This document shows positions 809 to 10,886 of a stretch of DNA of 12,518 nt, piece after piece. The notes under the pieces are model-generated. The model searched no databases. It saw nothing but the letters and a program-made list of their open reading frames with translations, and was not told the origin of the DNA. Within the stretch, counting starts at the first letter, position 1. Each line of letters begins with the position of its first letter. Both the position numbers and the translations under genes were made by a program. The DNA is taken from the NCBI GenBank assembly GCA_012270355.1, contig JAAXIL010000074.1, positions 1-12,518 of the forward strand, read 5' to 3'. This DNA is from Psychrobacter sp. Its GTDB lineage: Bacteria > Pseudomonadota > Gammaproteobacteria > Pseudomonadales > Moraxellaceae.

Positions 809-2344
809 ATGAGTCGTGAAATTTTAACGGTGGTTGAAACCGTCAGTAACGAAAAAGGCTTAAATCCTGAAGATATTTTTGAAGCGATTGAGCAAGCCCT
901 TGTCGTCTCGACTAAAAAGAAGGTCTATACCGATCAGCCTGAAGTGGCGTTGCGGGTAGATATTGACCGCAAAACGGGCGATTATGACACCTATCGTTAT
1001 TGGACTGTGGTGGCGGACGAAGACCACGAAATGCCCGCTTGTCAGTTGGCACTCAGCGATCTTGATGAAAATGAATGGTCACTTGGCGACATTAAAGAAG
1101 AGCAAATTGAATCGATTGAATTTGGTCGCATTGCCGCCACGCAAGCCAAACAAGTCATCATTCAAAAAATTCGTGAAGCCGAACGGGCGTTGACGGCGGA
1201 TATGTTTGAGCCACGCATTGGCGAGATGTTGTATGGCATCGTCAAAAAACAAACCAAAGATGGCTATATTATTGATTTGGGTGACAACGCCGAGGGCTAT
1301 CTTGCCCGTGACCAAATGTTACCCCATGAAAAATTGACGGTGCAATCTCGCATCAATGCCATTTTGTATCATGTTAATCGGGAAAATCGTGGGGCACAAT
1401 TGTTGCTTTCTCGCACGCACCCCGATATGTTGGCGGCTTTGATGACCAAAGAAGTGCCAGAAATCAGTGAGCAAACCATTGAAATTCGGGATGTGGCACG
1501 TCAGCCTGGTGTGCGAGCGAAAATTTCGGTCAAAACCAATGACCATCGCATTGATCCGGTTGGAGCATGTATCGGAATGCGGGGTACTCGAATTCAGGCG
1601 GTGCAACAAGATTTGGATGGTGAACGCATTGATGTCATCGTGTGGTCAGACGATCCTGCCCAATATATCATCAGTGCTCTAGAGCCAGCCGATGTGAATA
1701 GCATCATCCTTGATGAAGATGCCCGCACCGCCGACATTGTGTTCAGTGCTAATGACCAATTGGCTCGAGCGATTGGGGCACAAGGGCAAAACGTTCGCCT
1801 TGCCTCAGAACTGACAGGTTATAAGCTTAATATGATGCTCGAAGAAGAATATCTTGAGCGACAACAAAGCGAAACCAAAGGTTATATCGATTTATTTTAT
1901 AATAAATTGGAAGTTGATGAAGATTTGGCTCAAGCTTTGGTTGATGTGGGTTTTACCACTATCGAAGAGGTGGCGTATGTGCCGTTTGAAACTTTCTATG
2001 ATATTGAAGGTTTGGACGATGAGGCCATCGAGATGATTCAAGAGCGTGCCAAAGAAGTGGTGATTGCCGATGAATTGGTCAAACAGCAAAACATGAAAGA
2101 GCCAAGCCAAGAGCTCTTGGATATGGAAGGCATGACGGTAGATTTGGCGTATAAACTCGCTCAAAAAGATATCATTACCGTAGATGATTTGGCGGAGCAA
2201 GCCATTTTTGATATCGAAGACATTGAGGGGCTGGGTAGCGAGTTGGCGGGACAGCTTATCATGACTGCTCGAGCATCTTGGTTCGACGAAACTGACGATG
2301 CTTCAGATGATGCGTCAAGTGATAAGTCTGACGATGCGTCTTAA
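809..2344 (+). CDS. nusA: Transcription termination/antitermination factor NusA
   Basis: The 511-residue product is NusA, an RNA polymerase-binding factor that promotes pausing, intrinsic termination and rRNA antitermination. Domains appear in the expected order: an N-terminal polymerase-binding domain (about 1-130), an S1 domain (about 135-200, starting IGEMLYG), KH1 with GMRG at 256-259, KH2 with GAQG at 323-326, and two C-terminal acidic helix-hairpin repeats (about 360-490) as in Escherichia coli NusA. The last 14 residues form a Ser/Asp-rich tail with repeated DDAS. GTAGG 7-11 nt before the ATG is a fair ribosome site. infB follows after an unusually structured 233-nt spacer. The stop is TAA. 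Confidence 0.98.
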   Translation: MSREILTVVETVSNEKGLNPEDIFEAIEQALVVSTKKKVYTDQPEVALRVDIDRKTGDYDTYRYWTVVADEDHEMPACQLALSDLDENEWSLGDIKEEQIESIEFGRIAATQAKQVIIQKIREAERALTADMFEPRIGEMLYGIVKKQTKDGYIIDLGDNAEGYLARDQMLPHEKLTVQSRINAILYHVNRENRGAQLLLSRTHPDMLAALMTKEVPEISEQTIEIRDVARQPGVRAKISVKTNDHRIDPVGACIGMRGTRIQAVQQDLDGERIDVIVWSDDPAQYIISALEPADVNSIILDEDARTADIVFSANDQLARAIGAQGQNVRLASELTGYKLNMMLEEEYLERQQSETKGYIDLFYNKLEVDEDLAQALVDVGFTTIEEVAYVPFETFYDIEGLDDEAIEMIQERAKEVVIADELVKQQNMKEPSQELLDMEGMTVDLAYKLAQKDIITVDDLAEQAIFDIEDIEGLGSELAGQLIMTARASWFDETDDASDDASSDKSDDAS

Positions 2345-2577: not shown

Positions 2578-5298
2578 ATGGCAGATAAAACGGTCAAAGA
2601 ACTCGCAGAAATGGTCAGCAAAACCGTCAGTGAGTTGCAACAGCAACTCGTTGATGCGGGGATGCCTGAGCGTGGCGAGGACGACCTGGTCACCGAGCTT
2701 GAGCAAGAGCAATTGGTGGCATACCTAAAACAGTCGCACGGGCAAGAACGCAAGCGTCGCATTAGTCTAAAATCCAAGACCACGAGTACCGCTCGAGTCA
2801 CGGGATCATCAGGCAAAGCCAAAAGCGTGAACGTCGAGGTGCGAAAGAAAAAAGTATTCGAAAAGCCTGACCCAAATAAATTAGCCGAAGAAATTGCTGC
2901 TCGAGAAAAGGCAGTTGCTGAAGCTAAAGAGCGGGCGTTGCAAGAAGCCAAGCAAAAAGAACAGGCTAAAAAAGAGGCGGAAGAACGTCAAGCAGCAACC
3001 TTAGCGGCAATGCGGGCGAATTTGGGTGGCGGACAATCGGACACCGCAAGCGATGAAGAAGTCGCCAGCGTGGTGGTGAAAAAAGGTAGTAAGGCTGCGG
3101 ATGATGCCAAAGCAAATGTGAAGAAAAAGGCAGTCGCTAAAGCCCCGCCGAAGGTAGAAACCGAAGCAGAACGCAAAGAGCGAGAAGCACGGGAAGCCGA
3201 AGAAGAACGCCTACGTAAAATTGAGGCAGAAACTCGCCGCAAACAAGCTGAAGAAGCTCAAAAGCGTACGCTTGAAGAAATGCGAAAAATGGCGGGCAAA
3301 TATTCGGATAAAGAGCCAGTTGCTGAAGTGCGTAAAGATGAGCCACTTGCCGAAGGTTTGGTGGGTGAAGCTCTAGAAGAGTCGTTTGAGAAAGAACGTC
3401 GTGAAATTAAACGGGGGTCGTCAAGCACGGCAGCCCGCGGACGTCGCCGCAAAAGCCAAGAAGAGCGGGAAATTCGCAACCGTCGGCATGGCTTAAAATC
3501 CAGCCAAGCAGGACAGCATACCTTCAAAAAGCCGGTTGAAGAAATCGTTTATGACGTGGAAATTGGCGAACAAATCGTGGTGTCTGATTTGGCACAACGC
3601 ATGGCAGTCAAAGCCCGTGAAGTCGTTAAGATGCTCATGAAAATGGGTGAGATGGTGTCAGAGTCTGACAGTATCGATCAAGCGACAGCTAGCTTAGTGG
3701 TGGAAGAGTTGGGGCATAACCCGATTGCCGTTAGTGACACTCGTGTCGAGGACGAACTGCAAGATGCGGTTGCCGAACGTCGCAGTAATGTGCAAACCCG
3801 TCCGCCTGTGGTCACCATCATGGGACATGTGGATCATGGTAAAACCTCGCTACTGGATAAAATTCGGGAAGCGAAGGTTGCGTCAGGCGAAGCAGGGGGC
3901 ATCACCCAGCATATCGGAGCGTATCATGTCGAAACCGATCGTGGCGTGATTACTTTCCTTGACACACCTGGACACGCTGCCTTTACCGCCATGCGGTCAC
4001 GAGGGGCTCAGGCAACGGATATTGTGGTGATTGTTGTTGCCGCTGATGACGGCATGATGCCACAAACCGAAGAGGCAATCGACCATGCCCGAGCGGCAGG
4101 AACACCGATTATCGTTGCCATCAACAAAATTGATAAAGACTCGGCAGATCCTGACCGTGTCTTGAATGAGTTGACAACCAAAGAAGTCGTATCCGAAGAT
4201 TGGGGTGGTGACACGCCAATGGCTCGGGTATCTGCCAAAACGGGCGAGGGCATTGATGACCTGTTGGAACTTATCAGCCTTCAAGCCGAACTCATGGAAC
4301 TCGATGCCCCAACCGATGGTGCGGCTCAAGGGGTAGTCATTGAATCTCGTTTAGATAAAGGTCGTGGAGCGGTCGCCAGCCTGTTGGTTAAAAAAGGCAC
4401 GCTTAATCAAGGCGACTTAGTATTGGCGGGCGAGTTTTACGGTAAAGTACGAGCGATGACCGATGAAGATGGCAATCGCACTAAATCAGCAGGACCATCG
4501 ATTCCCGTAGAAATTTTGGGCTTGCCCGATACCCCAGCAGAGGGCAGTGAAGTCCTTGTGGTTTCTGATGAGAAAAAAGCCCGTGCAGTGGCGGCATTCC
4601 GTGCGAACCGTGAGCGGGAAGCCCAGCTTGAACGCCAAAACAAGATGCGATTAGAAAGCATGTTTGAGCAAATGGGTCAAGAAGATGTGTCGTTCTTAAA
4701 CATTATTCTCAAAACCGATGTGCGTGGTTCGCTTGAAGCCTTGCTGGTTGCGTTAAATGAGTTGTCAACCGATGAAGTCAAGGTAAAAGTGATTAGCTCA
4801 GGTGTTGGACCGATTACTGAATCTGACGTCACGCTTGCCGAATCGAGCGAAGCGGTACTGCTTGGCTTTAACGTGCGAGCTGACACCACTGCCAAACGCA
4901 AAGCTGATGAAGCTGACCTCGATATCCGCTACTACAGCGTCATTTATGGCTTAATTGATGATGTGAAAGCTGCCATGAGTGGCATGCTATCCCCTGAACA
5001 CCGTGAAAAAATCTTGGGTATTGCTGAGGTGCGGGAAGTGTTCCGCTCGAGCAAATTTGGGGCTGCCGCTGGCTGTATGGTGGTTGAAGGTACGATTTAT
5101 CGTAACAAGCCAATTCGAGTTCTGCGTGATGATCAAGTCATCTTTACGGGACAACTGCAATCGCTACGCCGTTTCAAAGACGACGTGAACGAGGTACGAG
5201 CAGGCATGGAATGTGGTTTAGCGGTTAAAGGCTACGATGTGGAAGCAGGTGACAAAATCGAAGTGTTTGAAATTCAAGAGATTCAACGCACGATTTAA
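2578..5298 (+). CDS. infB: Translation initiation factor IF-2
   Basis: The 906-residue product is IF-2, the GTPase that brings initiator tRNA to the 30S subunit and promotes 50S joining. A small IF2 N-terminal domain (about 1-52) is followed by a long Lys/Glu/Ala-rich charged linker with helical stretches, then a second IF2 N-terminal-type domain (about 331-382). The G domain has G1 GHVDHGKT at 416-423, G2 GGIT at 440-443, G3 DTPGH at 462-466, G4 NKID at 516-519 and G5 SAK at 552-554. The remaining sequence holds the beta-barrel domains II and IV and domain III. The length is typical for gammaproteobacteria. TAGG 9-12 nt before the ATG supports this start. Shorter isoforms from internal starts are known in Escherichia coli but were not resolved here. 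The stop is TAA. Confidence 0.98.
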
Positions 5299-8783: not shown

Positions 8784-10886
8784 ATGTCAATGTTTAATAC
8801 CATTTCAAGAGAATTTCAATACGGCAATCAGCAAGTGATTTTGGAAACAGGACGTATTGCCCGCCAAGCCAACACGGTGCTTGTGCACATGGGCGGTGTG
8901 TCGGTGCTGGTCGCTGCCGTTGTCAAAGACGAAGCAAAAGAAGGACAAAACTTCTTTCCGCTGACCGTCAACTATACCGAAAAAATGTATGCAGCAGGAA
9001 AAATCCCAGGTGGATATTTGAAGCGGGAAGGTCGCCCGAGCGAATTTGAAACCCTAACGTCACGATTGATTGACCGTCCTATCCGTCCGCTATTCCCAGA
9101 TGGTTATGTCAATGAAGTGCAAATCTCTGCTACCGTTGTTTCGTCAGACAAAACGCACGATGCTGACATTGAAGCCATCATAGGAGCGTCGGCATCACTT
9201 GCCATTTCTAACGCAACCTTTAATGGACCAATTGGTCGAGAGAGAGTGGGTTTTATTGATGGCGAATATGTATTAAACCCATCTATTAAAGAGCTGGAGC
9301 AAAGTGATTTAGATTTGGTGGTAGCAGGCACGAAATCTGCCGTGTTGATGGTGGAGTCGGAAGCCAAAGAATTGTCTGAAGATCAGATGCTCGGAGCGGT
9401 GTTGTATGGGCATGAACAGCAACAAATCGTGATTGATAACATCATTGAACTTGCCAAAGCGGTTGGCACGCAAAAGCAGGAATTCGTTGCTCCCGAAAAT
9501 GACAAAACGCTAAGCGAACAAATGCAAAGCCAGTTTGGCGATCAGGTGGCACAAGCTTACACCATCAACGAAAAGCAAGACCGCTCTGCCAAACGCGATG
9601 AGATTAACGACAAAGCGATTGAGACTTTAGCCGGTGACGAGACAGCTGAAGATTATGAGGATAAAAAGTCCGCCATCAAAACCATTTTTGATGACATGAA
9701 GTATCGCACGGTGCGAGACAACATTTTGTCAGGCAAACCTCGTATTGACGGACGTGATCTCGACACCGTACGGGCGTTGGATATTCAAGCGGGTGTGTTG
9801 CCCTACACGCACGGTTCGGCGTTGTTTACTCGCGGAGAAACACAAGCTTTGGTAACTACCACGCTAGGCAATAGCCGTGACGTTAACTTAGTTGATTCGT
9901 TATCAGGCACTAAACAAGACCACTTTATGTTGCATTACAATTTCCCCCCATATTCGGTGGGAGAAACTGGACGGGAGGGCAGTCCAAAACGTCGGGAAAT
10001 TGGGCATGGTCGCCTTGCAAGACGTGGCGTACAAGCCATGTTGCCAGACGCAGACCGCTTTCCGTATGTGATTCGAGTGGTGTCAGAAATCACTGAATCA
10101 AACGGTTCATCATCAATGGCATAGGTGTGCGGAGCGAGTCTGGCTATGATGGATGCAGGCGTGCCAATGAATGCCCCTGTTGCTGGTATTGCGATGGGCT
10201 TGGTGAAAGAGGGTGACCGTTTTGCCGTACTCTCGGACATCTTGGGTGATGAAGATCATTTAGGCGACATGGACTTTAAAGTGGCAGGCTCGAAAGATGG
10301 TATCACCGCTTTGCAAATGGACATTAAGATTGAAGGCATCACGCCCGATATCATGGAGCAAGCACTTAAGCAAGCCCATGCAGGTCGCATCCATATCCTA
10401 GAGGCGATGAACAAAGTATTGGCATCGAGCCGTACTGAAATCAATGCTCATGCCCCGAATTATGCCGTGATAAACATTGATGCCGATAAGATCCGTGATG
10501 TGATTGGTAAAGGTGGGGCAACCATCCGTCAGTTGACCGAAGAAACAGGTGCGGTCATCGACATTGAAGACAATGGTACGATTCGTATTTTTGGCGAAAA
10601 CAAAGCTGCTACAAAAGAAGCCATCCGTCGCATTGAATCACTCACCGCTGAAGTCGAAGTGGGCAAAGTGTATGAGGGTACGGTTGCTCGGGTCGTTGAC
10701 TTTGGAGCGTTTGTGACCGTATTACCTAATACCGATGGTTTGGTGCATATCTCGCAAATCACCGATGAGCGAGTGGAAAATGTGTCGGATCACTTAAGTG
10801 AAGGGCAAACCGTCAAAGTCTTGGTACAAGACGTGGACAACCGTGGTCGCATTAAACTGACGATGAAAGGTATTGACCAAGCGTAA
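8784..10886 (+). pseudogene. pnp: Polynucleotide phosphorylase, interrupted by in-frame TAG
   Basis: Read through one TAG, the frame encodes a 700-residue PNPase, the phosphorolytic 3'-5' exoribonuclease that also associates with the degradosome. The first RNase PH core, the helical linker and the start of the second core are present up to residue 446. Codon 447 (10122-10124) is TAG where the family has Ser in SSSMAS-VCG. The same frame then continues through the acidic catalytic cluster [13 protein letters not shown] (485-497), a KH domain with GKGG at 575-578, and an S1 domain (about 625-697), ending in TAA. No other damage is visible, and a serine codon TCG is one base from TAG. Without read-through the 446-residue product would lack the catalytic acids and both RNA-binding domains. 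A GTG follows the TAG directly, but no ribosome site favours a restart. It could be a recent nonsense allele, a sequence error or a suppressed codon. Confidence 0.93.

Follow-up and report, generated by a model that had tools for sequence, protein, structure and literature searches.

The in-frame TAG that interrupts the polyribonucleotide nucleotidyltransferase gene (pnp) in the stretch of DNA analysed here (the window, 12,518 nucleotides) is very probably an artefact of base calling or assembly, introduced where the draft sequence is locally of poor quality. What makes a sequencing or assembly error the most likely explanation is that the TAG lies in a patch of improbable changes, and that further patches of this kind occur elsewhere in the draft genome. 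At a few places, each about 15-75 bases long, the contig seems to have been built from a single low-quality read or very few of them; wrong bases would pile up there, mostly as A/C and G/T confusions, and one such miscall would have converted a Ser codon of pnp to TAG.

The pnp frame and its stop codon

The window is contig 132 of a Psychrobacter-like draft genome (1.95 Mb in 258 contigs, 83% complete and 2.6% contaminated), and by pnp its nearest named relatives are Psychrobacter, at 84% over the first 446 residues. The gene order in the window is rimP, nusA, infB, rbfA, truB, a pfpI-like gene, rpsO, and pnp, with names assigned from the sequences and a family-library check made for pnp alone. 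All eight of these genes have TAA as their terminator.

The pnp gene (8784..10886, forward strand) is a single reading frame broken by one TAG at codon 447 (10122..10124, forward strand), which is in frame with both the start codon (ATG, 8784) and the terminator (TAA, last base 10886). Its two halves match the NCBIfam profile TIGR03591 consecutively, the first scoring 619 bits (cut-off 525) over positions 1-437, and the second scoring 395 bits over positions 439-688 of 689; the curated score is thus exceeded and the profile covered, as expected of a member of this family. The codon aligned to the TAG encodes Ser in all 109 related loci (TCT in 72, TCA in 16, TCG in 8, TCC in 5, AGC in 4, and AGT in 4), which comprise 29 from genus genomes and 80 from database records, with possible duplicates among the genomes. 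Ser likewise stands at this site in each of the 120 homologous proteins listed, these being the best 120 of 7998 scored. The original prediction of an in-frame TAG at a Ser codon of pnp is therefore borne out by the coordinates, the frame, the related loci, and the listed proteins.

When the 446-residue frame was used as a query, the window's own protein was alone at 100% among the 120 listed proteins. The next matches, at 98%, were three intact PNPases of 698-700 residues (P0001-P0003, all 98% identical to the window), and the remaining listed proteins reached at most 85%. We would like to note that a record titled Streptomyces cinereus (BMPS01000017.1, our L109) carries a pnp about 80% identical to that of the window, as in Moraxella and Psychrobacter records, and that either the title or the contig of this record looks wrong.

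Patches of private changes in pnp and infB

Compared with the 120 listed proteins, the window stands alone at 12 pnp codons, stop included, and at 10 of these 12 all of the other 120 proteins share one residue. The private codons fall into three patches on the forward strand: codons 130, 132, 138, 145, 152, and 153 (9171..9242), codons 268, 271, and 275 (9585..9608), and codons 447, 455, and 463 (10122..10172). The third patch includes the TAG, and its two other members (codons 455 and 463) lie no more than 16 codons downstream of the stop. It had been supposed that pnp shows no damage beyond the stop, a premise that does not survive the 11 further private codons. Neighbouring private pairs at most 10 codons apart number 9 in pnp; 100,000 random placements gave 1.75 such pairs on average and never more than 7. 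Elsewhere in pnp, the window residue is always present in at least one of P0001-P0003. Six more sites are private when compared with 102 DNA relatives (codons 65, 79, 106, 115, 336, and 619), and we left these out of the errors because they are common to at least one of the same three proteins. The window also has two synonymous private bases in pnp, at 9243 and 10020, which proteins cannot judge.

A patch of the same kind is found in infB at codons 655, 659, and 670 (4540..4587, forward strand), as judged from six near-identical copies, the window's included, and 114 further proteins. The five other copies are 99-100% identical, and 10 positions vary among the six; the window is alone at three of these (codons 655, 659, and 670, all invariant in the other 119 proteins), and at the remaining 7 it shares its residue with three or more of the five copies. 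Close private changes that are absent from near-identical copies, as clustered errors would leave, are thus present in both pnp and infB. In nusA, private changes were seen at codons 141-150 and 173-179, the latter stretch (window 1325-1345) holding four private changes in seven codons when compared with 29 genus genomes. The nusA changes may be either errors or lineage changes.

None of the 15 private codons (12 in pnp and 3 in infB) needs a transition, the bases having been read back from the codons, as the near-identical copies are available as proteins only. Counted by hand from the window codons and the relatives' residues, the changes comprise 10 A/C or G/T exchanges, 2 G to C, and 3 transversions whose kind depends on the original codon, which makes 10 a minimum for the A/C and G/T exchanges. 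The chance of seeing no transition in 15 is 0.0023, 0.00037, and 0.000055 at transition fractions of 0.33, 0.41, and 0.48, respectively, of which the second and third are the values for the own and the control genome from a 30-gene comparison. That wider spectrum, built from changes private with respect to two references, was itself not distinctive, with a transition fraction of 0.41 own and 0.48 control and an A/C plus G/T fraction of 0.33 own versus 0.32 control. It is dominated by natural divergence, and the error reading is neither supported nor excluded by it.

The error profile in PMC3334598 gives A/C (29.2%) and G/T (26.8%) as the most frequent HiSeq errors, has wrong Illumina calls piling up in distinct regions, and puts the errors in the B-tails of reads at 6.5%; shared lasers are described in PMC4381044. 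The window patches resemble clustered Illumina substitution errors as these sources present them, being dense local miscalls in which A/C and G/T are the commonest exchanges (PMC3334598, PMC4381044). They differ in that they are known from the consensus contig alone and in that their fit to A/C and G/T exchanges is incomplete, two of the changes being G to C and three ambiguous. We infer low read quality or depth as the cause and an Illumina-like platform.

The same patches bear on the strongest of the alternatives, namely that the TAG is a real and recent nonsense mutation marking the early decay of pnp, which we regard as unlikely. PNPase would then be cut after 446 residues and would be without its second catalytic core and its KH and S1 parts. 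A single stop in an otherwise open frame is what such a mutation would leave, and E. coli in laboratory culture tolerates the loss of pnp. However, decay would scatter changes, whereas those in pnp sit in three patches, and the patches contain no transitions even though transitions are common among real differences (0.41-0.48). The private changes, moreover, occur in no other listed protein.

Mid-gene stops elsewhere in the draft genome

Further stops were sought in 40 more contigs of the same genome (360,876 bases, about a fifth of the genome), a non-random sample consisting of contigs 1-22, contigs with tRNA or release-factor matches, and two contigs numbered beside that of the window. The reference was a set of 844 ORFs from 1.2 Mb of a relative, which gave matches to 92 own genes (with the window) and to 153 genes in 400 kb of a control genome. 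The raw counts were 19 stops in 12 of the 92 own genes versus 12 stops in 7 of the 153 control genes, many of these raw stops being gene ends, run-over, or pre-start sequence. Stops flagged 'short' or 'lowid' were classed by hand as one of these three, in own and control genomes alike, with the exception of L183:3737, which lies near the alignment start and has conserved residues on both sides and was kept by hand. One ORF (L237_-_19279_186) with several stops in both genomes looks non-coding and was dropped from both, reducing the genes from 92 to 91 and from 153 to 152. By this hand classification, mid-gene stops with conserved surroundings are found in 5 of 91 own genes versus 0 of 152 control genes (Fisher p = 0.0069, or 0.018 without pnp). 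Without both pnp and L183:3737, the comparison is a marginal 3 of 90 versus 0 of 152 (p = 0.050).

The five mid-gene stops are the TAG of pnp (10122-10124, forward strand), a TAG in an FBPase-like gene (L187:2901), and TAA codons in a peptidyl-prolyl isomerase-like gene (L151:3114), a TsaD-like gene (L136:485), and an RluB-like gene (L183:3737); the names of the last four are those we presume from their sequences. Among 30 genus genomes, the own one is alone in having a stop in the isomerase-like gene, and three more changes at invariant sites lie within 5 codons of that stop. The FBPase-like stop is accompanied by one further change at an invariant site within 6 codons. Three other genus genomes each have one stop in the FBPase-like gene, which we take, from the aligned range, to be their terminators. 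The TsaD-like gene has one or two stops in 7 of the 29 other genus genomes, and for this reason we treat it as weaker evidence. The RluB-like stop adjoins several A/C and G/T exchanges in a comparison with one relative. As a separate observation, four own genes (L149, L146, L191, and L200) and one control gene are split between reading frames relative to the reference.

Changes were also found in parts of the translation machinery. In RF2, the stretch at L192:5513-5566 (G000:C119) has an APL motif where the one relative compared (G027) has SPF, with more changes beside it. The SPF recognition tripeptide of RF2 is usually described as universal, and the APL site is likely another error patch by the look of its sequence. 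A tRNA match at L049:1501-1574 (G000:C176:10798-10871), with its anticodon read as ACG (Arg), deviates from the consensus in its T-arm and was not called by ARAGORN. Both RF2 and this tRNA-Arg (ACG) are expected to be essential, so that errors are the simplest reading of their changes. A different tRNA-Arg (TCT) is cut off at the ends of two contigs (L043:1-71 in C242 and L050:1493-1550 in C66), as at an assembly break. For a nonsense mutation in pnp, these results cut both ways: stops in other genes of the genome would agree with it, but RF2 and tRNA-Arg are also affected, which argues against it.

Read-through of the TAG and the meaning of the stop

That the TAG is real and is translated, for instance with a suppressor tRNA that inserts serine, is highly improbable. 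The reading frame stays open and conserved before and after the TAG, as read-through would have it, and in a genome 83% complete a suppressor tRNA could be missing from the assembly. Against this, RF1 (prfA) is intact, scoring 528 bits versus a cut-off of 423, and TAG ends 13 of the 75 own genes traceable to their end (31 of 143 in the control). Neither mark of UAG reassignment, the loss of RF1 or the disuse of UAG as a terminator, is therefore seen. A CUA anticodon was found in none of the 18 tRNA matches from this 83% complete genome (15 anticodons called by ARAGORN and 3 read from alignments). The second mid-gene TAG, in the FBPase-like gene, occupies a Leu position, and TAA accounts for the other three mid-gene stops. 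RNA folding of positions 10100-10160 gave -13.5 kcal/mol (z 0.57), a value equalled or bettered by 142 of 200 shuffles. A recoding element at the stop is thus without support, the local structure being no better than that of the shuffles.

The case resembles natural UAG suppression or reassignment in having an in-frame TAG in a conserved gene, and differs from it in that RF1 is intact, no CUA tRNA was found, TAG terminates genes, and mid-gene TAA codons occur too. A weaker form of the idea, in which the TAG is present in the strain and a little read-through of UAG yields some full-length PNPase, perhaps through a suppressor tRNA encoded outside the assembled part of the genome, is scarcely credible either. 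The patches could conceivably have been made by a strain chimera, as 258 contigs and 2.6% contamination resemble a metagenome bin, but a chimera would import relatives' residues and none of the 120 listed proteins has the window's residue at any of the 12 private codons, making this a very improbable source.

The stop had originally been put down to a sequence error, a very recent nonsense mutation, or read-through, plausibly with a tRNA that inserts serine. Sequence error is now strongly supported by a patch of private transversions, by like patches in the contig and the genome, and by mid-gene stops of both TAA and TAG; read-through by a serine tRNA is left unsupported by an intact RF1, the ordinary use of TAG as a terminator, and the tRNA matches of this incomplete genome.

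A real stop that is read through would make this an example of natural amber suppression in a housekeeping gene. As matters stand, the lesson is a practical one: before recoding is proposed for a lone in-frame stop in a draft genome, its surroundings should be searched for private changes and the kinds of base change among them compared, and the reads of this assembly are needed before any of its genes is called lost. In the living organism, pnp is probably ordinary and intact.
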